From contig DATFYX010000071.1 of the NCBI GenBank assembly GCA_035314825.1, positions 1-64,000 of the forward strand: 64,000 nt of DNA, in the 5' to 3' direction. The position numbers were made by a program, and so were the translations under genes. Position 1 is the stretch's first letter. Each line of letters opens with the position of its first letter. This stretch comes from Candidatus Eremiobacteraceae bacterium. GTDB taxonomy: Bacteria; Vulcanimicrobiota; Vulcanimicrobiia; Eremiobacterales; Eremiobacteraceae. Positions 766-63,640 of the stretch are shown one piece after another. A model generated the notes under the pieces. That model saw only the letters and a program-made list of their open reading frames with translations. It was not told the origin of the DNA and ran no database searches.

Positions 766-3477
<2,712 letters not shown>

Positions 3478-3498
3478 TGGAGTGCGCTACCTTCGGGA

Positions 3499-3807
3499 CT
3501 AGACGGCAGGCGCGGCGTGGCGTTTGTCGAGCTTGCGCGTCTTGACTTTTTGGATCTGATGCTCGAGCCGGTCGCGCACCAGGTCGATCGCTGCGTCGAT
3601 GCCCTTGCTGCGCTCTTCGGCTTTGACCAGCCGATGCGGCAGATGGAGCGTCACGCCGACGATCCGCAGCTCGCGCTCCGCGCGCAGCGTCACGTGGGCC
3701 TCGAGGATGCGGTCGTAGTGGCGTGACAGGCGTTCGAGCTGCCGCTGGACATGCTCTCGAAGCTCACCTGTGACCCGTACGTTCCTGCCTCTGATGTAGA
3801 TCTTCAT
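3499..3807 (-). CDS. hpf: Ribosome hibernation promoting factor, short form (HPF/YfiA/RaiA family)
   Basis: A 102-residue protein with the beta-alpha-beta-beta-beta-alpha S30AE fold: it begins MKIYIRGRNVRVTGELREHV and has the long basic helix DAAIDLVRDRLEHQIQKVK near residues 70-90. It binds the 30S subunit and blocks the mRNA and tRNA channel during stasis. It lacks the C-terminal dimerisation domain of long HPF, so by family knowledge it may need a partner for 100S formation, or may act on 70S like YfiA. Its position immediately before secA is a common bacterial arrangement. Confidence 0.9.
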   Translation of the reverse strand: MKIYIRGRNVRVTGELREHVQRQLERLSRHYDRILEAHVTLRAERELRIVGVTLHLPHRLVKAEERSKGIDAAIDLVRDRLEHQIQKVKTRKLDKRHAAPAV

Positions 3808-3850
3808 CGCCGCCGGCTTCGAGGGTATGGTGTGTCATTTCGCATTTCGG

Positions 3851-3988
3851 TCAGTGAAAATGAAGTCCTGCCCGCAGCGCGAGCTCGTACAGCGCAAAGC
3901 CCGCAGCCGCGAGGGCCGCCACGATGAACGCGATCCGGGCGACGACGTACGGCCGCTGCGGACGCGTCTTGATGATCTGACGCTTCAC
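3851..3988 (-). CDS. 45-residue single-pass membrane protein
   Basis: A small ORF with a GTG start at 3988 that overlaps the deacetylase stop by four bases (GTGA), a typical translational-coupling arrangement. The product has a basic N-terminus (VKRQIIKTRPQRPY), one clear hydrophobic segment (ARIAFIVAALAAAGFALYEL, about residues 17-36) and a short tail. By the positive-inside rule the N-terminus should be cytoplasmic. No family is recognised. The coupling suggests a partner or anchor for the upstream envelope enzymes, but that is inference. Confidence 0.6.
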   Translation of the reverse strand: MKRQIIKTRPQRPYVVARIAFIVAALAAAGFALYELALRAGLHFH

Positions 3989-4824
3989 AAGGACACCGCG
4001 ACCGGGTCGTTGATCTGGTCGAGCGGCATGCGCTGCTGCAGCTGCGAGAGGGTGACGAACTCGAATCCCGCGCGCCGGTAGGCGGCGACGATCTGCGGCA
4101 GGGCGTCGATCGTCGCGGTCGAGCCGTTGTGCAGGAGAAAGACGGCGGGCGAGCGCGCGTGCGTGGTCACATTGTCGACGACGAACTGTGCCGTCACGTG
4201 TCTCCAATCGCCCGGATCGACATCCCAGAGCGCGACGGTCTCGCCCTGGCCGCGCGCTGCGCCGACCGTGGCGGCGTTGAAGTTGCCGTGCGGCGGGCGG
4301 AAGTACACGATGTGGCCGCCGGTCACCCGCTCGATCTGAGCTGCGCCGTCCGCCACTTCGCGCGACTGCGCATCAAACGCGAGCGTCGCCATTTCAGGGT
4401 GGGTCGAGGTGTGGTTGCCGATCTCGGTCCATCCTGCGGCGATGCGCTCCGCAAGCGCAGGCTGCTCGATCGTGTCACGGCCGATCAGGAAGAAGACTGC
4501 GGGCACATCCAACCTGTGCAACTGCGCGAGCAATGCCGGGGTCGCCACGGGATAGGGGCCGTCGTCAAACGTCAGCACCGCATACCGCGGCCGCCGCGGT
4601 GGCGAGAGCGATTCGCGCACGTCCAGCATCATGCGCTGCGCAATCGCGACGAGCGGCGGGTCGAGCACGGTCGCGCTCGGCATCGCGGGCGGCACGATGA
4701 CAGGGATCAGTTCGAGTTGGGCGTGATGCGCCCAGCGGCGTAGGCCGATGACCGCGAGCAACACGAGGATGAGGCCCGCGATCGCGAACGCGATGCGGCG
4801 TCCTTGAGATTCTCCGGTGGTCAC
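3985..4824 (-). CDS. Membrane-anchored polysaccharide deacetylase (NodB/CE4 family)
   Basis: A 279-residue protein with an N-terminal membrane anchor (about residues 11-28) and a NodB homology domain from about residue 80. The catalytic motifs are present: TFDDGP (85-90, with the general-base and metal Asp pair), HTSTH (H138 and H142 as metal ligands), and RPPHGNFN for motif 3. CE4 enzymes remove N- or O-acetyl groups from peptidoglycan or exported polysaccharides. The start is GTG, one base after the stop of the LCP gene, so the two are probably cotranslated. Together they suggest attachment and modification of a cell-wall-linked glycan. The exact substrate is unknown. Confidence 0.9.
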   Translation of the reverse strand: MTTGESQGRRIAFAIAGLILVLLAVIGLRRWAHHAQLELIPVIVPPAMPSATVLDPPLVAIAQRMMLDVRESLSPPRRPRYAVLTFDDGPYPVATPALLAQLHRLDVPAVFFLIGRDTIEQPALAERIAAGWTEIGNHTSTHPEMATLAFDAQSREVADGAAQIERVTGGHIVYFRPPHGNFNAATVGAARGQGETVALWDVDPGDWRHVTAQFVVDNVTTHARSPAVFLLHNGSTATIDALPQIVAAYRRAGFEFVTLSQLQQRMPLDQINDPVAVSL

Positions 4825-4825
4825 G

Positions 4826-6103
4826 CTATTGCGCGCGGAAGTCCCGCCCGATGACGATCTCGATGTCGCCGCCGTCGACCGTGCCGGTCGTGACGTCGGC
4901 GTCTTTGACCGGGAGGCGTTTCGCGACTTCCCCAGCGACGTTCTTGTCGACGCCGGTGACCCTGGTCTTCGGGTTGTCGAAGCTCGACGCGTTGCCGGTC
5001 GAGACGACGTTGAAGCCGCGTTGGCGCAGGTAATCGGCGAGCGCTGATGCTGCCCCGGGTTGGCCCGAGCCGTTGTGCACGATCACGTGCACCGTGGACG
5101 GATCGAATTCGTTGCCGAAGCCCGCGACGATATACTTCTGCACGACCGGGCGGCCGTTCGCGGCGTCGTAGAACAGCACGGACTCGCCGTCGGTGAAGCC
5201 CTCGAGCACCGGCAGTTGCGCGGTGTGCACCATCGCCGGCGTCTCATCGCGCAGCGCCAACGCGAGGTAGAACAGCTTGTCGTAGCTCAGATCGGTACGC
5301 ACGTTCGCCTGCACCAGGCCGATGAGCGAGGGAAGCTTGGCGAAGATCGCCGGATCCTTCATGCGCTTGACGAGATCCCCGATGACCTGGCGCTGCCGCC
5401 GCATGCGGCCGAAATCGCCTTCGGGGTCGTGGCGGAAGCGGATGTAGCCGACGGTCTGCTCGCCGTTGAGATGCTGCGGGCCCTTCTTCAGATGGATGTG
5501 CAGGTGGCCCCAGCTGTCGTCGTAGTCCATGTCTTTCTCGACGTCGACGTCGAGACCGCCGATCGCGTCTACCAAATTCTTGGTCGCGTCGATCTTCAAG
5601 ACCACGTAGTTGTCGAAGGGTGGGAAATTCAGGTTGTCGACGACCGTCTTCTCCGAGCGCAGCGGGCCCGCGTCGGCGATCGCCTCATTGATCTTGCCGT
5701 AACCGCTCTTGGGTATGTGGACCCACAAGTCGCGCGGGATCGAGACGATGCCGACCTGGTGCGAAGCGAGGTCGACGTTGACGGCCAGCATCGTGTCCGA
5801 GCGCGAGGAGCTGGTGTACATCTCGTCGCCTTGAGTCCAGTTCTCGTCGACGCCCATCACCAGCACGCGCAGCTTCGGCTTGCCGAAGATCTCAGTCAGA
5901 TCGGGCTGGGCGAGATTGAGCTCGGCCAGCGCGTTTTGCAGGCCGTGCTTGTGCTTCACGTACACCCCGAAAGATATCGCGCCGGCCACTGCGATAAGAG
6001 CGAGCAGACTCCACAAGAACACCCTACCCGGGCGCGCAGGCGGCGGCGCGCTGACGGCCGACGGCGGCTGTTGACTCGGTGGACTGACGAACTGGTCGGA
6101 CAA
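4826..6103 (-). CDS. LytR-CpsA-Psr (LCP) family glycopolymer transferase with LytR_C domain
   Basis: A 425-residue protein: proline-rich cytoplasmic N-terminus, one transmembrane helix (about residues 28-49), an LCP catalytic domain (about 75-290) and a C-terminal LytR_C domain (about 335-420, starting VHVIVHNGSGQPG). LCP hallmarks include the GVD...RSDTM segment (R101) and the SIPRDLWV segment (R124), arginines that bind the polyprenyl-pyrophosphate substrate, and YIRFRHDPEGDFGRMRRQRQ around residues 220-240. LCP proteins transfer lipid-linked glycopolymers to peptidoglycan. It lies 15 bases after rimO and one base before the deacetylase. Confidence 0.93.
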   Translation of the reverse strand: MSDQFVSPPSQQPPSAVSAPPPARPGRVFLWSLLALIAVAGAISFGVYVKHKHGLQNALAELNLAQPDLTEIFGKPKLRVLVMGVDENWTQGDEMYTSSSRSDTMLAVNVDLASHQVGIVSIPRDLWVHIPKSGYGKINEAIADAGPLRSEKTVVDNLNFPPFDNYVVLKIDATKNLVDAIGGLDVDVEKDMDYDDSWGHLHIHLKKGPQHLNGEQTVGYIRFRHDPEGDFGRMRRQRQVIGDLVKRMKDPAIFAKLPSLIGLVQANVRTDLSYDKLFYLALALRDETPAMVHTAQLPVLEGFTDGESVLFYDAANGRPVVQKYIVAGFGNEFDPSTVHVIVHNGSGQPGAASALADYLRQRGFNVVSTGNASSFDNPKTRVTGVDKNVAGEVAKRLPVKDADVTTGTVDGGDIEIVIGRDFRAQ

Positions 6104-7534: not shown

Positions 7535-8025
7535 CAGCGATAGTTCACGAATTGGACGGCAAAGTCGAGCGGCATGGCCTTCACCAGCTCGATCACCTTC
7601 TGCAGATCGTCCTTGGACTTGCCGGTCACCCGGAGTTGTTCGTCTTGGATGCGCGTCGTCACTTTAAGTTTGGCTTGTTTGATCGCCTCGGTGAGCTGCT
7701 TGGCCCGCTCGGTCGCGATGCCTTGTTCGACCGTGATCGTCTGGCGCAGCGTCCCTTGCGATGCCGGTTCGGGCGTGCCGTACTTGAACGCCTTCAAAGA
7801 CACGCCCCGTTTGACGCACTTGCCCTGCAAGATGTCCACGACGTTCTTGAGCTTGAGCTCGTCGTCGGCGATGATCGTGATCTTCATCTCACCCAGCTCG
7901 ATGCTCGACTTCGAATTGCGAAAATCGAAGCGCGTCGCGATCTCGCGCTGCGCTTGGGCCACTGCATCGGCGAGGCTTTGCTTTTCCACCCGTGACACGA
8001 TGTCGAAGGAGAATTCGCTACTCAC
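7534..8025 (-). CDS. yajQ: YajQ family nucleotide-binding protein
   Basis: A 163-residue protein that matches the YajQ/UPF0234 family over its full length. It begins SSEFSFDIVSRV, has RFDFRNSKSSIEL near residue 32, and ends PLDFAVQFVNYR. The family has two ferredoxin-like domains; in Xanthomonas a member binds cyclic di-GMP, and other members bind RNA or phage factors. The role here is not determined. The GTG start lies inside the last codons of the upstream rodZ-like gene (8-base overlap), and the stop overlaps rimO, so expression is probably coupled through the block. Confidence 0.92.
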   Translation of the reverse strand: MSSEFSFDIVSRVEKQSLADAVAQAQREIATRFDFRNSKSSIELGEMKITIIADDELKLKNVVDILQGKCVKRGVSLKAFKYGTPEPASQGTLRQTITVEQGIATERAKQLTEAIKQAKLKVTTRIQDEQLRVTGKSKDDLQKVIELVKAMPLDFAVQFVNYR

Positions 8026-8854
8026 GCGGCCCGGTCGTCAGCGTGGGATCCTCGGCCGCGAACTTGCGCTCTTCCACTTGTCCATGCTGTCCCAGCGTGC
8101 CGATCGGCTTGCCGTCGATGGTGGCGTTCACGCCGCCGGCGTTGCCTGCGCGCAGCGTGATCTCATGCACGCCGTGGAAATCGCGCACCGTGCCGGCCGG
8201 CAGCGTCTCGTAGACCACGCGCTTGCCGTCGACGGTGACCGACAGCCAGCTGTCCTGCGTGAGTTGCAGCTGCAGATTCACACCGGCTTGCTTCGCCCCA
8301 TTGGCCGCACCCGCGTCGCCGCCGTTGAAGATCGCCTCGTCTTGCGGGGCCGGCGATGGCGATGTGTTGTCTTGCGCTGAGATCTGCGCGCTGTTCTGCG
8401 CGCCGCTTTGCGCTTGTTCGCGCGGCGCGGGTCCGAACGTGTAGTAGAGCACCGCGACCACGAGCAGCACCGCGAGCGCGCTCATAGCGCTTAGCAGCCA
8501 AGGGTACCATGCGGCTCGAGGCGTTTCCGCGCGTTGCGAGCGGAATGTCAGCGGCTCCGGTTCGATGAGCGCAGACACCTCGGGCGGCTGCTGTTGCTCC
8601 TGCGGCACGGATGGTGTCTGCACGGGAATGGCGGCGTCGATCTGATCGGCGATCGCAGCCGGGTCAAGCCCGACGAGCTTGGCGTAGTTGCGGATAAAGC
8701 CGCGCGCGTAGCTCGGCGGCCCGAGGCGCCGCCAATCTTCGGACTCGATCGCGTCGATGAACTCCGCGCGCAGGTGCAGCTGCCGGGCTGCTTGCACGGC
8801 CGTCATGCCGCGCTGTTCGCGCGCATCGGCTATTTGCTGACCTAAACCGGACAT
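8018..8854 (-). CDS. RodZ-like helix-turn-helix membrane protein
   Basis: A 278-residue protein with a cytoplasmic Cro/cI-type HTH domain (about residues 4-70, with the RodZ-typical YARGFIRNYAKLVGLD segment). A proline- and glutamine-rich linker follows, then a transmembrane helix (about 117-140) and a C-terminal DUF4115-like beta domain (about 195-270). RodZ links MreB filaments to the elongation machinery. No mreB is in this window, so the function is inferred from architecture. The start at 8854 is set by a GGAAGG ribosome site five bases upstream and by homology beginning there; the longer open frame to 9103 is not supported. Confidence 0.85.
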   Translation of the reverse strand: MSGLGQQIADAREQRGMTAVQAARQLHLRAEFIDAIESEDWRRLGPPSYARGFIRNYAKLVGLDPAAIADQIDAAIPVQTPSVPQEQQQPPEVSALIEPEPLTFRSQRAETPRAAWYPWLLSAMSALAVLLVVAVLYYTFGPAPREQAQSGAQNSAQISAQDNTSPSPAPQDEAIFNGGDAGAANGAKQAGVNLQLQLTQDSWLSVTVDGKRVVYETLPAGTVRDFHGVHEITLRAGNAGGVNATIDGKPIGTLGQHGQVEERKFAAEDPTLTTGPRE

Positions 8855-8964: not shown

Positions 8965-10134
8965 ATGACGATATCGACGCTTCCGGCATCTGAGCATTAC
9001 CAAACCTTAACCGGCCGCTGGCCGGCCGGCTTTGCGCTTGCCGCGATGAGCGGCGGGGTGGATAGCGCGGTCGCGACCGCCCTCGCGGTCGGCGGCGGCG
9101 CACAGGCCGTCGGCGTGACGATGCGCCTGTGGAGCCCGGGGGCAGGGGAGTTGTCCGAAAAGGTCCGGCAGTGCTGCGGCCCGACCGCCTACGAGGACGC
9201 CCGCCGCGCGGCCGCGCGGGCCGGGATCTCCCATTACGTCGTCAATTTCGAGGCTGCTTTCGAAGCGGCCGTGCTGGACTATTTCACCCGCGAATACCTC
9301 GAGGGACGAACGCCCAATCCGTGCGTGGCCTGCAACAATCTGGTGAAGTTCGGCGCGCTGCTCGACTTCGCGCGCGCGCTCGGCGCGGCCACCATGATCA
9401 CCGGCCACTACGTCCGCATCCGTCCGTCCGAAAGCGGCCCGCGCCTGCTGCGCGCGCTGGATCGTTCCAAGGATCAATCCTACATGCTGGCGGGTCTGCG
9501 CCCCGAGCAGCTGGGTGCTATCGTCGCTCCGCTGGGCGAGTATACAAAGGAAGCAACTCGCGCGCTGGCACGCGAGTTGGACCTCGGGGTAGGCGACAAG
9601 CCGGACTCGATGGATCTGTGCTTCGTGGACAGCGATTACCGCGGTTTCATCCTGCGCCGCTTCCCTGACGCGGCGCGACCCGGGCCGATCATGACGGTCG
9701 ACGGGCGCACCGTCGGCCGACACGAGGGCTTGCTCGCCTATACGGTCGGACAGCGCAAGGGCATACCGACCGCTGGTCAGGGCGACGGGCCCTGGTACGT
9801 CGTGCGCACGCTCGTGGCCGAGAACGCGGTGGTCATCGGACGGCGCGAGGACCTCGCACGCCGCACGATCGTGTGCAGCGCAGCGAACGTGATCGCGCCG
9901 GATGCGTTTGCTTCGGGCGGCGCGCGCGGCGTGGCGGTGTGCCGCTACCGCAGCGCACCGGTGGGCGCCACGGCCCATCTGAGCGGCGGCGCCATGGTGG
10001 TTGAGCTCGACGAGCCAGTGAGCATCGTGTCCCCTGGCCAGCTGCTCGTGTTGTACGACCCCAGCGACGAAGAAGTGCTCGCCTCGGGCATCATCGAGCC
10101 GGACGACACAACCGTAACGGCCGCCGTCTCGTAA
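8965..10134 (+). CDS. mnmA: tRNA-specific 2-thiouridylase MnmA
   Basis: This enzyme places sulfur on uridine 34 of Lys, Glu and Gln tRNAs. In 389 residues it has the PP-loop ATP-binding motif SGGVDS (29-34), the catalytic cysteine of NPCVACNN (C120) and its persulfide partner in MDLCFVDSDYRGF (C219). The C-terminal domain carries GQRKGIPTAG. The expected length is about 360-390. It is transcribed divergently from the rodZ-like gene across 110 bases and followed after 10 bases by a thioredoxin-like gene. A clear ribosome site is not visible before the ATG. Confidence 0.95.
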   Translation: MTISTLPASEHYQTLTGRWPAGFALAAMSGGVDSAVATALAVGGGAQAVGVTMRLWSPGAGELSEKVRQCCGPTAYEDARRAAARAGISHYVVNFEAAFEAAVLDYFTREYLEGRTPNPCVACNNLVKFGALLDFARALGAATMITGHYVRIRPSESGPRLLRALDRSKDQSYMLAGLRPEQLGAIVAPLGEYTKEATRALARELDLGVGDKPDSMDLCFVDSDYRGFILRRFPDAARPGPIMTVDGRTVGRHEGLLAYTVGQRKGIPTAGQGDGPWYVVRTLVAENAVVIGRREDLARRTIVCSAANVIAPDAFASGGARGVAVCRYRSAPVGATAHLSGGAMVVELDEPVSIVSPGQLLVLYDPSDEEVLASGIIEPDDTTVTAAVS

Positions 10135-10144
10135 CTCTATCATC

Positions 10145-11191
10145 ATGATCGTCGGAGCGATGGTTGCGTTCGCGGCGGCGGCCTACGCGTCGCTGCTGCC
10201 TTTCGACGGCGCTAGCGGCTGGCTGAACTCGCCGCCGCTGACGCCGGCGACGCTCGCCGGCAAAGTCGTGCTCGTAGACTTTTGGGAATACACGTGCGTC
10301 AACTGTCTCAAGACCATCCCATACGAGCGCGCGTGGTACCAGCGTTACGCGAAGTACGGCTTCACCATCGTCGGCGTCCAGACGCCTGAGTTTGCGTTCT
10401 CGGGTGAGCCGAGCAATGTCGCTGCCGCCGTCAAGCGGCTTGGCATCACGTGGCCGGTCGCGATCGACGGCCGACACGAGATCTGGGACCGCTATGGCAA
10501 CGATGCATGGCCGCACGAACTGCTCTACGATCAGCACGGCAAACTCGTCGCCGACCATGAAGGCGAAGGCGACTATCCGGTCATGGAATCGCACATCCAG
10601 CAGGCGCTGCGCGCGGAGCATCCGCGCGCGGATTTTCCCGCGCCGATGGATTACCTGGCGCAAGACCGCTACAGCAAACCCGGCGCCGTGTGCTACCGCC
10701 ACACGCCCGAGATGTACGTCGGCGATTGGCGCGGCGACGGCGTGCTCGGCAACGCACAAGGCTATCCGGCACGCGGCACCGTCACCTATGTCGATTCACC
10801 ACCGCACGAAGACGGACGTGCCTATCTTGCGGGGCCGTGGTTCCAATCGGGCGAGGCCATGGTCAACGCCCCGGGGGCGCCAGCGCCCTCGCATGTCGCG
10901 ATCGGCTATCAGGCGATCCAAGTCGTCGCGGTTCTGGCGCCGAACGGACAAGGCCCGATTCCGTTGTTCGTGCTGCAAGACGGCGCGCCGCTGGCTCGGG
11001 CAGACGCCGGATCGGACGTCCGTTTCGACGCCGGCGGGCGAGCTTTCGTGCTGGTCGACCAAGCGCGGGAATATGACCTCGTGATGAACAAACACTTCGG
11101 CCACCATGACCTCGAACTGCGGCCCGCCCATCCGGGTCTCGGCGTCTATACGTTCGATTTCGAAGCGTGCGAGGTGGGCGCGGACCGCTAG
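10145..11191 (+). CDS. Secreted thioredoxin-like (DipZ/AhpC-TSA type) protein with C-terminal beta domain
   Basis: A 348-residue protein with a hydrophobic N-terminus (about residues 4-18) and a thioredoxin-like domain containing a CVNC active site (C51, C54) in the context VVLVDFWEYTCVNCLKTIPY. This is the DipZ/TlpA-like pattern. Residues after about 160 form a second, beta-rich domain resembling the C-terminal domain of mycobacterial DipZ. It is likely exported or membrane-anchored and acts as an extracytoplasmic thiol oxidoreductase. No CcdA-type electron donor domain is fused or adjacent. It heads a compact run of overlapping genes. Confidence 0.83.
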   Translation: MIVGAMVAFAAAAYASLLPFDGASGWLNSPPLTPATLAGKVVLVDFWEYTCVNCLKTIPYERAWYQRYAKYGFTIVGVQTPEFAFSGEPSNVAAAVKRLGITWPVAIDGRHEIWDRYGNDAWPHELLYDQHGKLVADHEGEGDYPVMESHIQQALRAEHPRADFPAPMDYLAQDRYSKPGAVCYRHTPEMYVGDWRGDGVLGNAQGYPARGTVTYVDSPPHEDGRAYLAGPWFQSGEAMVNAPGAPAPSHVAIGYQAIQVVAVLAPNGQGPIPLFVLQDGAPLARADAGSDVRFDAGGRAFVLVDQAREYDLVMNKHFGHHDLELRPAHPGLGVYTFDFEACEVGADR

Positions 11192-11777
11192 CGCCGGTCT
11201 GCTCGCGCTGAGCCTGGCGGCTGCCGGCTGCACGTCCAAGCCGCCGTCGACGTACAAACCGGGCGTCGTGCCCGGCATCAGCCTCGGCCAGCTCGAGGCT
11301 TTGCTGGGAAAACCATCGAGCTCGCTGCCGTTCGCGCTGCCCGGCGGCATTCAGGCCGACATCCTCGCATTCCCCTTCGGGCAGGCGGCGCTCAAAGGCG
11401 ATAAGGTCATCACGGTGACGATCGCGAGCGACCCGTCCTACGTCGGCGCCCATGGCGTGCATCTGGGCATGCCCGAGGACCAATTGTTGAAAGCGCTTCA
11501 CGGCACCGGCGCGAAGGGGCACCGCGACGCGTATGACGTCATCGTCGGAGACATGGACACGCGCACCAAGGACTACTATGACGAGACCGGTCATGTGATG
11601 TACGAGCTTGCAGCTGCGAACGCCAACGATCCGGAGGCGCCTTTCAACGTCGTGAGCGTCAATCTCGCCGATGCGCAGGGATTGCAGTTCCTCGAAGCGG
11701 TGACCAACGCGAAAGTCTCTGGTTTGTATACCGGCCAGCATATCGACAACTTCGTGTCCGAGCCGTGGTCCCTATGA
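11106..11777 (+). CDS. Putative lipoprotein of unknown function
   Basis: A 223-residue frame that overlaps the end of the thioredoxin-like gene. It carries a lipoprotein signal: basic stretch (KRARWART), hydrophobic core (AGLLALSLAAAG) and lipobox cysteine at residue 42. The only ATG in frame (11106) gives an 86-base overlap; no closer conventional start exists in this frame, so a rare start nearer the signal cannot be excluded. The mature part contains repeated short motifs such as PGISLGQLEALLGKP and GVHLGMPEDQLLKALHG. These resemble the helix-loop 'G-M-...-v-...-lG-P' unit of SmpA/BamE-like lipoproteins, a weak similarity. It is followed by an ATGA overlap with the next gene. Confidence 0.7.
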   Translation: MTSNCGPPIRVSASIRSISKRARWARTASAGLLALSLAAAGCTSKPPSTYKPGVVPGISLGQLEALLGKPSSSLPFALPGGIQADILAFPFGQAALKGDKVITVTIASDPSYVGAHGVHLGMPEDQLLKALHGTGAKGHRDAYDVIVGDMDTRTKDYYDETGHVMYELAAANANDPEAPFNVVSVNLADAQGLQFLEAVTNAKVSGLYTGQHIDNFVSEPWSL

Positions 11778-33186: not shown

Positions 33187-33768
33187 ATGCCTGAGCTCAA
33201 CCCGACCGACGAGTTCGATTCGCTCTCGAGCGGGCCGCTGCCGGGCGTCGATCCGGCCGCGGCCGACGGGCGCGCGGACGGCGAGGCGCGGGCGCAAAGC
33301 TCGCTTTCCGATCAACTCGAACAAGCGCGTGCGCAAATAGAGGAGCTACGCAGCCTCTACATGCGCGCGCTGGCCGATTTCGATAACTACCGCAAACGCG
33401 CCGAGCGCGACATCCGGGACCTGTCCGAACGCGGACGGCGCGATCTGCTCAAACGGATCTTGCCCGTGTTGGACAACCTGGCGCGCGCGGAAGAGTACCG
33501 CGCCGCCGGAACGCCGGCAGACAAGATCGTCGACGGCGTGGTGCAGACCTCTAAGCAGATGCTGTCGGCGCTGGCGGCCGAAAAGGTCCGCCCGATCGAC
33601 GTGATCGGCAAGCCGTTTGATCCTGCGGTGGCCGAGGCCGTCGCGACGCAGCCCGCCGCGGACGGCGTCGCGGACAACACCGTGGTGGCCGAGGCTGCGA
33701 AAGGCTATTATATCGGCGACGAGGTCCTGCGCCCGGCACAAGTCGTCGTCGCCAAGAGAGACATGTAG
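33187..33768 (+). CDS. grpE: Nucleotide exchange factor GrpE
   Basis: A 193-residue DnaK exchange factor. An acidic, disordered start is followed by a long coiled-coil helix (about residues 38-85, including [19 protein letters not shown]) and the C-terminal beta domain with [16 protein letters not shown] and the closing [18 protein letters not shown]. The TAG stop is the head of a long perfect palindrome (33768-33791). Confidence 0.95.
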
Positions 33769-33791
33769 TCCCGGGCTCTCGAGCCCGGGAC
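33768..33791. repeat. Palindrome copy 3 between grpE and dnaJ
   Basis: Perfect 11-base arms GTCCCGGGCTC and GAGCCCGGGAC around a 2-base TC loop, preceded by the TGTA that with the first G forms the grpE stop TAG. It ends 9 bases before the dnaJ ATG, so a stable hairpin in the mRNA could lower dnaJ translation or protect the upstream 3' end. Confidence 0.85.
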
Positions 33792-58646: not shown

Positions 58647-59786
58647 TCACGCCCCTCCGGCAAGCGCGACGGCCTGCTTCGCGCCCTCGTTCATCGTCTC
58701 GACGGACTTGATGCCGTTGGCCTGCAGCACCGCGCGGCCTTCCTTCTCGTTGGTGCCTGTCAAGCGGATGACGAGCTTGTCCTTGCTCCACGAACCGCCG
58801 CCGAGCGCTTCGACCAATCCCTTGGCCACTTCGTCGCCGCGCGTGATGCCGCCGAAGATGTTGATGAACAGCGATTTCACTTTGGGATCGGCGGTCACGA
58901 TGTTGACGGCTTCGCGCACGATGTCCGCCTTGGCGCCGCCGCCGACATCGAGGAAGTTCGCAGGCTCGCCGCCTGCGGCTTTGACCGCATCGAGCGTGCC
59001 CATCACGAGCCCGGCGCCGTTGCCGATGATGCCCACGTCGCCATCGAGATGGACGTACGCGAGACCGACCTTGCGCGCGCGTTCCTCGAGCGGGTCGTTC
59101 GGCAGGTCCGTCTTCCACGCTTCGAGCTCTTTGTGGCGGAACAATCCGTTGTCGTCGATGTCGACCTTCGCATCCGAAGCGATGACCCGTCCGTCTTTGG
59201 TGATGGCGAGCGGATTGATCTCGAGCAGCATCGCGCCGACGTCGAAGAACAGCTTGTACAGTTTGCCTAGGATGTCGACGAATTGACCGCTCGCTTCCTT
59301 AGGGATGTGCGCCTCTCTGGCGACCCGCCTCCCCACGAACGGCCAATAGCCCATGGCCGGGTCGATGCGGTACTTGGCGATGGCATCGGGGTGGGTGGCA
59401 GCGACTTCTTCGATGTCCATGCCGCCCATCGCCGAGGCGATGATGATCGGCCGCTTGCTCTGGCGGTCGACGGTGATCGAGAGATACAGCTCTTTGACGA
59501 TGTCGACGCGCTGCTCGATCCAGATGCGCTTGGCGATCTCACCCTTGATGTTCATCCCTAGGATCGCTGTGGCGGGCTCCACGACGTCGCGCTCATCGTT
59601 GGCGAATTTGATGCCGCCGGCTTTGCCGCGCCCGCCGATCAGCACTTGCGCTTTGACGACGCTGGGCGCCGGATTCGCGCGCATAATCGCGACGGCTTCG
59701 TCCACGGTCTGCGCCACCTTGCCCGCCGGCACTGGGATGCCGGCCGCAGCGAACAGTTCTTTGCCTTGGTATTCGAGCAGCTTCAT
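58647..59786 (-). CDS. sucC: Succinyl-CoA synthetase beta subunit (ADP-forming)
   Basis: 379 residues with the ATP-grasp N-terminal domain ([20 protein letters not shown]), [20 protein letters not shown] and the C-terminal CoA-ligase domain ([19 protein letters not shown] and [20 protein letters not shown]). It feeds the TCA cycle, matching the acyl-CoA degradation genes nearby. It is preceded on the minus strand by two palindromes that separate it from the methyltransferase. Confidence 0.96.
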
Positions 59787-59798
59787 CGTTCCTCGATC

Positions 59799-59825
59799 CC
59801 CGGGCTCAAGAGCCCGGGACTACAG
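59799..59825. repeat. Palindrome copy 9, upstream of sucC
   Basis: Perfect arms CCCGGGCTC and GAGCCCGGG (59799-59807, 59810-59818) with loop AA, followed by ACTACAG. On the minus strand this reads CTGTAGT then the stem, the same head as copy 3 at grpE. Confidence 0.85.
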
Positions 59826-59827
59826 TG

Positions 59828-59848
59828 CCGCGCTATCGCGGGACTACG
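59828..59848. repeat. Palindrome copy 10, at the methyltransferase stop
   Basis: Arms CCGCG and CGCGG (59828-59832, 59837-59841) around CTAT, then GACTACGG. On the minus strand the loop holds the TAG stop of the methyltransferase, so the last codons of that gene come from the element. It is tandem to copy 9, with near-repeat heads GGCACCGTAGTCCCG and GGCACTGTAGTCCCG. Confidence 0.7.
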
Positions 59849-60636
59849 GTGCCGCGTACGGCAAACGATCGCGCCGCGAGCGAGAATGTGCCGTCGGCCC
59901 GTTTGATGCCGAGTTGGTCGCGCAGACGTGCGGCAAGCGCGCTGCATTCGTCATCCGCCAGCGACGCGGCGTACGCGCCGGCCGGGCCTTGGCCGAGCAA
60001 GAACGGCGACCAATAGTCTTCGAACGACGCAAAGTCCATCTGGATCGCGAGATCGGCGGTGACGACGTCTGCGAGCCCCGCCTCGTTCAACAACGCGACG
60101 ATCTCTTCTTTCGTGAACGCAGCCGAGCGTTCGCCGAATCTGACGTCCTCGCGTTGGGGTCCGACCGCTCGCCAGAAGACGTCGAGCATGTCCATGCCGT
60201 TGCCCAGGTTCCACAGCGCCGCCGCGATCGTGCCGCCGGGCCGGACGACGCGGTTCAACGTGGCAAGCGCGCCGCGGCAATCCGGGATGAAATTGAGGAC
60301 CAATTGGCACAGCGCGCGGTCGAAGGAATCATCTGCAAAGCGCAGCGACGAGAGATCGCCGACTTCGAACTGGAACTGCGGCGGCACCTCGCGGCGCCGT
60401 GCGAACGCCACGTATGTCGCAGACGGGTCGATGCCGATGAGTTTCGCGCGCGGTGCGCGCGCGGCGACGGCAAGCGCGAGATTGCCGGTGCCCGATCCGA
60501 TGTCGAGAATGCGGTCGCCGTCGTGCACCTGCGCGAAATCGAGGAACAGCGGCGCGAGCTTCGCCGACCAGCGCCCCATGAAACGCTCGTAGGCGGCCGG
60601 ATCCTCGAAGTTGGCTGGCGTGCGTGCCTGCGTCAC
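59833..60636 (-). CDS. Class I SAM-dependent methyltransferase
   Basis: A 267-residue methyltransferase with motif I LDIGSGTGNLALAVAARAP (about residues 44-62), the acidic motif II IGIDPS, and motif III region ALCQLVLNFIPDCRGALATL. This UbiE/ArsM-like type acts on small molecules or quinones; the substrate is unknown. Start is GTG at 60636. The same 63 bases recur near 62331-62393 with an ATG start. Its last residues are encoded by a palindrome. It lies 196 bases before sucC in the same direction. Confidence 0.85.
   Translation of the reverse strand: MTQARTPANFEDPAAYERFMGRWSAKLAPLFLDFAQVHDGDRILDIGSGTGNLALAVAARAPRAKLIGIDPSATYVAFARRREVPPQFQFEVGDLSSLRFADDSFDRALCQLVLNFIPDCRGALATLNRVVRPGGTIAAALWNLGNGMDMLDVFWRAVGPQREDVRFGERSAAFTKEEIVALLNEAGLADVVTADLAIQMDFASFEDYWSPFLLGQGPAGAYAASLADDECSALAARLRDQLGIKRADGTFSLAARSFAVRGTVVPR
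60573..60635. repeat. Direct repeat, copy A (5' end of the methyltransferase gene)
   Basis: 63 bases identical to 62331-62393 except one mismatch (60583 versus 62341). It encodes the methyltransferase N-terminus, TQARTPANFEDPAAYERFMG. The next base differs, giving a GTG start here and ATG in copy B. Confidence 0.9.
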
Positions 60637-60697
60637 CTAGACGGCCTCACGGCTCGGCGGCTTTGCCCGAGGCGGTGGGGAGGCGCCGACTGGCACC

Positions 60698-61273
60698 TTA
60701 GGATGTGATGGTAATGGCGACTGGGTTGGACCAGGGGCTGTATATGCCCGCGGATGTGCTCGGCGACACCCCTGGCGCAACAAGTACGCGGCGCGCGACA
60801 ACCGTGTAGCGTCCTGGCTTACTCAGCGTGTAGCCCCACCACGCCGTTGGAACAAATCCCTGACTAAATTCGGAACTGGACTGAATGTCCGGAGGCATCC
60901 CCAAAGCGTACTCTGTGTCGGAAACGGTCTCTCCTGGTTGCAGCGCCCTGGGCATAACCGACCCGCTTGTGTTCAACAAGGGTCCACTTGGTCGCGTGTC
61001 AGGAGTGACAAGCGTGCCCGTGGCATCTCGTACGCTGAGTTGCGAGTCATTCTGCGGACCGGAAAAGAGTAGGCTAAGTGGCGTCCCTGATAAGTTGTGC
61101 ACGACGATCTTAACCCGGACCGTATCTCCCGCTTTGTAGGACGTCGTCTCGGGTATCAACGTAACGGCAATGCTGGCTGGCTGGGTGTAAGCAGCGGCGG
61201 CAGCCATCCAAGCCAGTGTCGCGGACGGCTGCGTCATCGCCGTAATGCTTAGAATGGTCACAAACAATTGCAT
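60698..61273 (-). CDS. Exported BsuPI-like (proteinase inhibitor-type) domain protein
   Basis: A 191-residue product from the ATG at 61273, with AAAGGAG upstream. A signal peptide covers about residues 1-30 (VTILSITAMTQPSATLAWMA...). The domain ETTSYKAGDTVRVKIVVHNL, LSLLFSGPQNDSQLSVRDAT matches the Ig-like pattern of Bacillus intracellular proteinase inhibitor BsuPI. Actual inhibitor activity is not established. The base composition seems lower in GC than that of its neighbours, in keeping with an acquired cassette. Confidence 0.65.
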   Translation of the reverse strand: MQLFVTILSITAMTQPSATLAWMAAAAAYTQPASIAVTLIPETTSYKAGDTVRVKIVVHNLSGTPLSLLFSGPQNDSQLSVRDATGTLVTPDTRPSGPLLNTSGSVMPRALQPGETVSDTEYALGMPPDIQSSSEFSQGFVPTAWWGYTLSKPGRYTVVARRVLVAPGVSPSTSAGIYSPWSNPVAITITS

Positions 61274-61305
61274 TATCGGCCTTTCTCCTTTACAGGCGAC
61301 TCGCC

Positions 61306-62013
61306 CTAGGGCAGATGTCCTGACCACTGGGGGAACGGTATGGACGTGTAGGCGTTCGGTATGGTTGCGGCGGGGTTTTGCGACCACGTCTGGCCCGACA
61401 GCGTCCAAGTTCCGCCCGACAATGTCGCCGTCCCAGACCAATTCCATGGTACGTAACCCAAGGGCACCCAAATGCTGTTCGCAATCCTCGGCTTATAGAC
61501 GAACCAAGTTTGAAACTGATCGCTACGTGAAAAGTAGCTCAGATCCCATAGAGGCTTTACGGGCGCGTCGATGTTTGACCACGTCCCATTTGCCCCCGCG
61601 AGCAGTGGCGACGACGTGTTTGCATACAAGATGTCTCCAGGAATTGGTTCGTCCAACCGGTAGGTCGACCCGGTGTTGTCCACAGGAGCCGCGGTGGGAG
61701 GCGCGGTCGAAGCCACGGTCTGTTTTTGTTTGGTCGTCAGGACCTGGATCGCACTGATGTCTCCATCCACGCCGGATGGGCCAGTCGCAACAAAGATCCA
61801 GCTTATTCCTGGCGTTCCGGGGGGCACGTCTCCGAAACTTAGCGCAAGCGCTCCGCCCTCGGAATAGGCGGCGCCGAGCTGAACGCTCCCTGTCGTTGAA
61901 GTCATCGATACGTTCGTCGGACCCAGCACATTGTAGGAAACGGGAACCGAACCTGCGCCCTGAAACGAATCGACCGTATCCCCTTGAACGTGGCCGAGAA
62001 CTTCGGCGAGCAC
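61306..62013 (-). CDS. Unrecognised protein, 3' part of a probably frameshifted lipoprotein gene
   Basis: A 235-residue frame (open, without a start, up to about 62112) beta-rich and rich in Ser, Thr, Gly and Trp: SYNVLGPTNVSMTSTTGSVQ, DISAIQVLTTKQKQTVAST, and a Trp-rich C-terminus (WVPLGYVPWNWSG, GGTWTLSGQTWS). Residues just upstream of the first Met, SSIAGNYGNASTIYV, read like real protein. The natural start is probably in the other frame at 62254, see the lipoprotein fragment. It ends 32 bases before the BsuPI-like gene start. No family recognised. Confidence 0.5.
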   Translation of the reverse strand: MLAEVLGHVQGDTVDSFQGAGSVPVSYNVLGPTNVSMTSTTGSVQLGAAYSEGGALALSFGDVPPGTPGISWIFVATGPSGVDGDISAIQVLTTKQKQTVASTAPPTAAPVDNTGSTYRLDEPIPGDILYANTSSPLLAGANGTWSNIDAPVKPLWDLSYFSRSDQFQTWFVYKPRIANSIWVPLGYVPWNWSGTATLSGGTWTLSGQTWSQNPAATIPNAYTSIPFPQWSGHLP

Positions 62014-62053
62014 ATAAATCGTGCTGGCGTTACCGTAGTTGCCAGCGATGCTG

Positions 62054-62254
62054 CTATAGATCCAGTGCAGGCTCAGGGAGCAACGGACGATGCCAGGGGA
62101 CTGCCTTGAGGCCTAGACCTGCCAGCGAGGCAACGGCGGCGGGGCGCTGGCTCGACGGAGCCGGGGGCAGTACGGGTGAGTGACTAGAACAGGCAACCGT
62201 TAACGCGGCTGCGACCAACGCGAAGAATGCGAAAAGCGATCCTCGATTTGGCAT
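62054..62254 (-). pseudogene. Lipoprotein N-terminal fragment (frameshifted)
   Basis: A 66-residue frame with a clear lipoprotein signal (MPNRGSLFAFFALVAAALTV then AC, Cys22) preceded by GGGGGGCGC. It terminates at 62054, while the adjacent frame, overlapping from about 62112, continues for about 265 codons. The two together make one plausible lipoprotein of about 300 residues if a single-base indel near 62060-62110 is assumed. Either a natural frameshift or a sequence error. Confidence 0.45.
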
Positions 62255-62330
62255 AACGAGCGCCCCCCGTCGTCTGTTAATCTAACTTGGACGCTCCGCG
62301 CCCATCGCCTCCGGCTCGGGCTTCGCCAAC

Positions 62331-62393
62331 GCCCCATGAACCGCTCGTAGGCGGCCGGATCCTCGAAGTTGGCTGGCGTGCGTGCCTGCGTCA
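62331..62393. repeat. Direct repeat, copy B, with truncated methyltransferase 5' end
   Basis: Second copy of the repeat at 60573-60635, 1758 bases away. It starts with the ATG at 62394-62392, encodes about 22 residues of the methyltransferase, then diverges near 62326. It lies 10 bases after the stop of acyl-CoA dehydrogenase 3, which is probably the original dehydrogenase-methyltransferase junction. Confidence 0.9.
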
Positions 62394-62404
62394 TCTGCGC
62401 GGTC

Positions 62405-63640
62405 TCATCCGCCGGTGGGCTTGTCGGCGCCGGGCTCGCGCGCTCCATCGGCAGCGCGTCCACCGTTGCGTTTGGGCCGGCCCGTCGAGGTGCGTTCGTC
62501 GAGCCGCCCGAGCAGTTCGCGGGCGATCACGATGCGCTGCACTTCCGACGTGCCTTCGTAGATCTCGGTGATCTTGGAATCGCGGTAGTAGCGCTCAGCC
62601 GGGAATTCGGTCGTATAACCGTAGCCGCCGAGGATCTGCACGCATTCGGCCGCATGCTTGCGCGCCGCGCTCGAGGCGAAGAGCTTGGCTTTCGACGAGG
62701 CGTCGATGCTGCTCGCACCTTGATCCTTCTGCCATGCCGCGCGATACAGCAGCAGGCGCGCAGCGTCAAGATCCATCGCCATGTCCGCGACCTTGAACGA
62801 GACCGCCTGGAAGGCGCCGATCGGACGGTCGAACTGGAAGCGATCGAGCGCGTACCGCACCGACGTATCCAGGCATGCCGACAGTATGCCGACGGCTTGC
62901 GCGGCGATCCCGAGCCGGCCCACGCTGAGGTTGGCCAACGCGATCTTGTACCCGCCTCCTTCGTCGCCCAGCAGCCGCGAGGCGGGCACGCGCGCATCTC
63001 GCAGCACCAGATCGACGGTGTCCGACGATCGGATGCCGAGCTTGTCGGTCTTGCGGCCAAGCGTGAGCCCTGGGGTGTCTCGATCGACGAGGAACGCGGA
63101 GATGCCGCGCGGCCCGGGTCCGCCGGTGCGCGCGAAGACGACGTAGACTTTGGCGCGGCTGCCGTTGGTGACCCACTGCTTGGTGCCGTTGAGGAGGTAG
63201 CTGTCGCCGTGGCGTTGCGCGCGCGTGCGCAGCGCACCGGCATCCGATCCGGCCTCCGCCTCGGTCAGCGAAAATGCGCCCAGCCATTCGCCGGCGCACA
63301 TCTTGGGCAGGTACAGCGCGCGCAGGTCCTCCGACGCGAACTGCTCGATGATACGCGTGATGAGACCGGCGTGCACGGAGACGGTGACCCCGACGCCGGC
63401 ATCGCCCTTGCTCAGCTCCTCGATCGCAAGGGCGACGCTGACCGCATCGAGTGCCGCACCGCCGTAACGCTCTGAGACCGACATGCCCATGATGCCGAGG
63501 TCGCCGAGCTTGGCGAACAACTCGGTCGGGAAGGCGCCATCTTTATCCCAGCGGCCTGCGTGCGGCGTGATCTCGCGCGCTGTGAACGCCGCGACCATGT
63601 CGCGCACGGCTCTTTGGTCGTCGGTCAATTCGAAGTTCAT
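62405..63640 (-). CDS. Acyl-CoA dehydrogenase 3
   Basis: A 411-residue acyl-CoA dehydrogenase with [58 protein letters not shown] and the catalytic Glu in [13 protein letters not shown]. It has a C-terminal tail of about 30 residues, rich in Gly, Arg and Lys, not seen in copies 1 and 2. The start overlaps the stop of the upstream hydroxyacyl-CoA dehydrogenase (ATGA), so the two likely act in one beta-oxidation step series. Confidence 0.93.

Follow-up and report, generated by a model that had tools for sequence, protein, structure and literature searches.

A probable insertion with long target duplication between an acyl-CoA dehydrogenase and a methyltransferase gene in a Candidatus Eremiobacteraceae genome

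The window (the whole stretch of 64,000 nucleotides analysed, from contig DATFYX010000071.1 of a Candidatus Eremiobacteraceae bacterium) carries on its minus strand an acyl-CoA dehydrogenase gene (acd), a repeat copy (copy B), an inserted segment, the other repeat copy (copy A), a methyltransferase gene and the succinyl-CoA ligase genes sucC and sucD, in that order. The features are as follows.

62405..63640, minus strand: acd, the 5' flank, identified by Pfam Acyl-CoA_dh_1/N/M
62312..62407, minus strand: copy B of the repeat (core 62331-62393), comprising the acd stop, an ATG and the first 22 methyltransferase codons, followed by decay
60650..62311, minus strand: insert between the copies, 1662 bp, GC about 0.60, absent from relatives
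62054..62254, minus strand: N-terminal piece of orfB with a lipoprotein signal peptide and a lipobox-like LTVAC, from translation
61306..62100, minus strand: orfB relic, about 260 C-terminal aa, in a different frame from its own start, from the family alignment
60698..61273, minus strand: orfA, an intact open frame for a 191-aa exported protein whose N-terminus is signal-like and which has an Ig-like domain
60550..60649, minus strand: copy A of the repeat in its gapped extent (core 60573-60635), from BLAST and alignment
59833..60636, minus strand: full-length class I SAM methyltransferase gene with a GTG start, its 5' end being copy A (Pfam Methyltransf_11, 7.5e-21)
58647..59786, minus strand: sucC, succinyl-CoA ligase beta subunit, the 3' flank, identified by tblastn

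The first-pass annotation had described a 63-base direct repeat with one mismatch, and the alignment bears this out: 60573-60635 and 62331-62393 match at 62 of 63 positions, at an offset of 1758. Extended over the start codons and adjoining bases, this core reaches 69 nt with 3 mismatches, and gapped BLAST pairs 60550-60649 with 62312-62407 (100 nt, 87% identity, 122 bits); the longest exact run common to the copies, read directly from the sequence, is 52 nt. Copy A opens the complete methyltransferase gene with a GTG codon (60634-60636), the counterpart of which in copy B is an ATG (62392-62394). Copy B lies beside acd and keeps register with the methyltransferase for 22 codons, also in agreement with the earlier description; it then shows a 4-nt deletion, matches at 12 of 14 further bases and loses all similarity near 62312, a decay as expected of a dead methyltransferase 5' fragment.

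The repeat occurs at these two sites only in the 2.55-Mb assembly. A survey of local direct repeats (at least 50 nt, at least 83% identity) recovered the window repeat alone from a 312-kb sample of the source genome, two repeats from 400 kb of other Eremiobacterota and six loci from 983 kb of other phyla, most of the remaining repeats being paralogous genes or intergenic repeats. A chance origin of the window repeat is excluded.

The segment between the copies had been described as holding two exported-protein genes, which is true of orfA and only partly of orfB. Family alignment of orfA shows conserved W-G and G-Y motifs, and its Pfam and PDB matches are weak (MG2/BsuPI/arrestin-like); profile searches of the PDB gave weak matches alone, to Ig/arrestin-like proteins and lysenin. 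The two pieces of orfB lie in different frames in the translation of 61306-62254, and the genome profile match contains an in-frame TAG. Full-length homologues of orfB have 544, 561 and 532 aa and a lipobox-like N-terminus like that of the window piece, and the C-terminal piece aligns with them from about residue 300. To judge from these alignments, orfB is a frameshifted and internally deleted relic of an Eremiobacterota lipoprotein of about 550 aa, from which about 220 residues are gone. Single-sequence AlphaFold models had a mean pLDDT of 39 (orfA) and 35 (orfB) and were set aside. Searches for counterparts of orfB in plasmids and phages gave no match, and an origin from either was rejected. 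No integrase, transposase or recombinase was found in 60650-62311 among the ORFs or with Pfam, NCBIfam, PHROGs and PADLOC, nor was a tRNA found at the insert or inverted repeats at its ends, and neither scans for terminators and promoters nor folding of the insert ends yielded a signal above shuffled sequences.

A contiguous acd-methyltransferase-sucC order, proposed earlier as the state to be sought in relatives, is present in G001, a genome of the same genus, in which acd (1807-3045 of locus L046) and the methyltransferase gene (3042-3830) share the overlap ATGA and are directly followed by sucC. This empty site was compared at the gene level, the divergence of the methyltransferases (57% amino acid identity) barring a base-by-base junction. 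The acd of the window is 85–86% identical to its orthologues in G001 and G002, and that of G002 is nearer to that of G001 (91%). By tblastn, sucC is 77–94% identical to its orthologues in G001, G002, G006 and G005 and 73% to that of G003; all of these stand behind acd or acd-methyltransferase. In G002, G006, G005 and G003, sucC comes after acd without a methyltransferase gene. In G002 (contig C13, L047, 5087-5123), where acd adjoins sucC and the methyltransferase gene is missing, the slot can be seen to vary independently of the insertion. The arrangement of the window was also looked for across the lineage, and the insert is missing at this place from all five relatives compared (G001, G002, G003, G005 and G006). 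On this comparison, the 1.66 kb between the copies is a lineage-specific insertion, since G001 has dehydrogenase, methyltransferase and sucC genes contiguous and without an insert.

The methyltransferase of the window has that of G001 as its sister (SH-aLRT 99), which means that the gene already stood in its slot before the insertion. It evolves fast: its identity to the G001 sequence is 57%, compared with 84% in the case of acd and 93% in that of sucC. The duplication greatly postdates the divergence from G001, because the repeat core is 98% identical while the methyltransferases of the congeners differ by 43%; it is probably a fairly recent change.

The insert had also been thought to hold foreign genes of different composition. 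Its GC content (0.596) is indeed nearly the lowest among all 1.69-kb stretches of the window, and its genes have a GC3 of 0.64–0.66, against 0.81–0.87 in acd, the methyltransferase gene, sucC, sucD and the gene for a TonB-dependent receptor. The step from composition to foreignness is not supported, however: the orfA and orfB families have a GC3 of 0.54–0.64 in G001, G002, G013 and G026, even though acd has a GC3 of 0.81 in G001 and G002, and one homologue, in G104, has a GC3 of 0.75. Low GC3 is therefore a mark of these families more than of any particular donor, and composition is no proof of a recent foreign donor; as these lipoprotein families have low GC3 in most hosts examined, it is a poor mark of recent foreign origin for them. 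The insert may have come by transfer within the genus or by movement within the genome.

The two insert families were counted in 149 genomes of the phylum and are present in 18 and 23 of them. orfB and orfA are adjacent, with orfB first, at nine places: once each in the source genome, G001, G021, G026, G052, G091 and G112, and twice in G115. The contexts of the pairs, compared by blastp of called ORFs (an all-against-all tblastx was dominated by noise), are mostly unrelated; G021 and G026, which belong to one genus, have a neighbour in common. Since orfB and orfA adjoin elsewhere too, and in mostly unrelated contexts, the insert is one patchy module rather than two random genes. The module pairs a 550-aa lipoprotein, which has a conserved W-rich C-terminal domain, with an exported Ig-like protein encoded after it. 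It is an unnamed module (window 60698-62254; L078, L079, L082 and L190-L194), and several of its orfB copies are broken. In G002, an IS3-type transposase-like fragment was recognised by eye near an orfB homologue (L087, about 5244-5423).

The locus is best explained as an insertion with long target duplication, a class known elsewhere in bacteria, rather than as a novel type of mobile element. A single insertion of an orfB-orfA fragment with target duplication into an acd-methyltransferase-sucC operon is given a probability of about 0.6. This reading builds on the observed repeat, the empty arrangement in the congener, the lack of a mobility gene in the insert and the decay of both orfB and copy B; the single event and the recombination pathway are inferred. 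The ancestral operon would have been acd-methyltransferase-sucC, and a fragment of about 1.66 kb with orfB-orfA would have entered the acd/methyltransferase junction in the lineage of the source genome, in one event that duplicated about 70–100 bp of the target, either by a staggered break and fill-in or by homology-anchored illegitimate recombination of incoming linear DNA. A copy would thereby have been left on either side, copy A starting the intact methyltransferase gene and copy B forming a dead 5' fragment after acd, and the methyltransferase gene would be placed behind the inserted genes and uncoupled from the translation of acd.

The earlier account, by contrast, had the junction duplicated and the genes captured thereafter. 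Such a tandem duplication of the acd-methyltransferase junction, with foreign genes captured later and independently between its copies, would yield an identical final anatomy, but it requires two events for a pattern that the known class produces in one, and the intermediate, a repeat without an insert, is present in none of the relatives examined. It is accordingly held to be quite unlikely, and one insertion is preferred as the simpler reading. That account had also noted a similarity of about 40 bases between the flank of copy A and the 3' end of acd, which proves to be suggestive only: without gaps, 24 of 45 positions are identical in register, where 14.4 would be expected (p about 0.002 by shuffling), and the distance from TGA to start codon is equal in the two, whereas a gapped local alignment of the flanks does not reach significance (p 0.13–0.23). 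That the acd 3' end was duplicated as well is thus weakly supported, and the identity of the flank (53%), set against that of the core (98%), counts against the favoured reading if both belonged to one shared duplication. Either the similarity is due to chance, in which case a simple target duplication suffices, or the repeat copies are of mixed origin. A real similarity would make the flank much more diverged than the core and would speak for a donor with a junction of its own, acquired by single crossover. In such a Campbell-type event, a circle or DNA from a related strain, with a diverged acd-methyltransferase junction and orfB-orfA, would have recombined to leave hybrid copies. The near-identical core between less similar flanks on either side and the equal TGA-start distance in copy A would both be accounted for, but a donor joining such a junction to orfB-orfA was found nowhere and the flank similarity hardly exceeds chance, so that this course of events is rather improbable. 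A 36-nt match (86%) of the copy A flank (60650-60685) to the coding sequence of an IclR-type regulator elsewhere in the source genome (C1, 85488-85523) was set aside as probably due to chance.

Genomic islands of the SXT/prfC-like kind insert at the 5' end of a gene, keep the complete target coding sequence and have direct repeats at both ends, as the window does. The repeat could, by analogy, be the attL/attR of a site-specific integrative element remnant at the methyltransferase 5' end, one that left the target gene intact, possibly with a replaced 5' end, and supplied the new GTG start. The window differs from such islands in its length of only 1.66 kb and in having no integrase or other mobility gene, and the ends of the insert have no inverted repeats. 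Moreover, a second copy of the supposed element is absent from the genome, the repeat sequence is used nowhere else in it, no other orfB-orfA pair lies at the start of a methyltransferase gene, and a comparable flanking repeat stands within contig reach of no other pair except that of contig C298 in G115. An integrative element is therefore very improbable, and an IS element or composite transposon was rejected, as the insert has no transposase and its ends have no inverted repeats. The metagenome-assembled genome is in 89 contigs, and two strains or loci might have been misjoined via the repeat. This is unlikely because the exact repeat is just 52 nt long, below the usual read size; the copies differ, moreover, at 3 of 69 positions, the orfB-orfA pair is present just once and the contig runs 14 kb past the window.

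Insertion with long target duplication was reportedly described by Nobusato, Uchiyama, Ohashi and Kobayashi in 2000. It resembles the window in that a gene-sized insert lies between long direct repeats of the target, in the uninterrupted site of a relative (here G001, at the gene level) and in the lack of transposase, integrase and terminal inverted repeats. According to the passages on this class in three later papers, it is known from H. pylori (Nobusato et al., 2000, cited in PMC1643837, PMC3031569 and PMC4978471), and a restriction-modification system is frequent as its cargo without defining it (PMC1643837, PMC3031569, PMC4978471). In place of such a system, the window has an exported Ig-like protein together with the relic of a lipoprotein. 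Homology-assisted illegitimate recombination is a source of variable segments (PMC2884548) and, as homology-facilitated illegitimate recombination, has been discussed for transformable bacteria (PMC2884548, PMC3784515). What it shares with the window is the gain of foreign DNA at a single locus, and in this pathway only one end of that DNA is homologous to the host; it differs in that the candidate host anchor of the window is the weak acd-tail similarity by copy A.

The locus is a clean and fairly recent case, in a poorly studied phylum, of gene insertion with a long target duplication and without any hallmark of a mobile element, and it offers one junction at which to ask how genes lacking a transposase move. 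For the organism the consequences are probably minor: the insertion breaks up an operon, and of the genes brought in one is already dead.

Two loci elsewhere can be set beside it. In L093, from a Bryobacterales genome, positions 7685-7756 repeat the 3' end of a DedA-like gene (9453-10025) as a 72-nt copy, with the partner at 9451-9519, and the 1.69 kb between the copies comprises a homologue of the window methyltransferase and another ORF. The anatomy appears similar to that of the window; the methyltransferase homologue in the cargo is a coincidence of little weight, as the surveyed loci were fetched with that gene. In contig C298 of G115 (L195), duplicated gene ends of 499 nt (the 3' end of a gene; 3769-4267 and 8027-8524) and 71 nt (a fragment; 4878-4948 and 11171-11241), with 87% identity, surround an orfB-orfA pair and other genes; the locus is a mosaic, more complex than the window, and reaches the contig end. 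It is very doubtful that the orfB-orfA pair is a minimal unit that spreads in Eremiobacterota with no recombinase of its own, duplicating target gene ends of 70–500 bp as it settles, with the window and C298 as two instances.

A further sequence, GGCGAAGCCCGAGCCGGAGGCGATGG, was tried as the boundary of an interspersed repeat on account of its REP-like look and was rejected, as it is single in the window and occurs nowhere else in the genome. Near-identical palindromic stretches of 26 nt with a CCCGGGCTCTTGAGCCCGGG core, possibly a REP-like element, lie in the gap between the methyltransferase gene and sucC (59799-59824) and at 33764-33789, and CGGGACTACAGTGCCGCG, which occurs twice 24 bases apart, adjoins the palindromic stretch.
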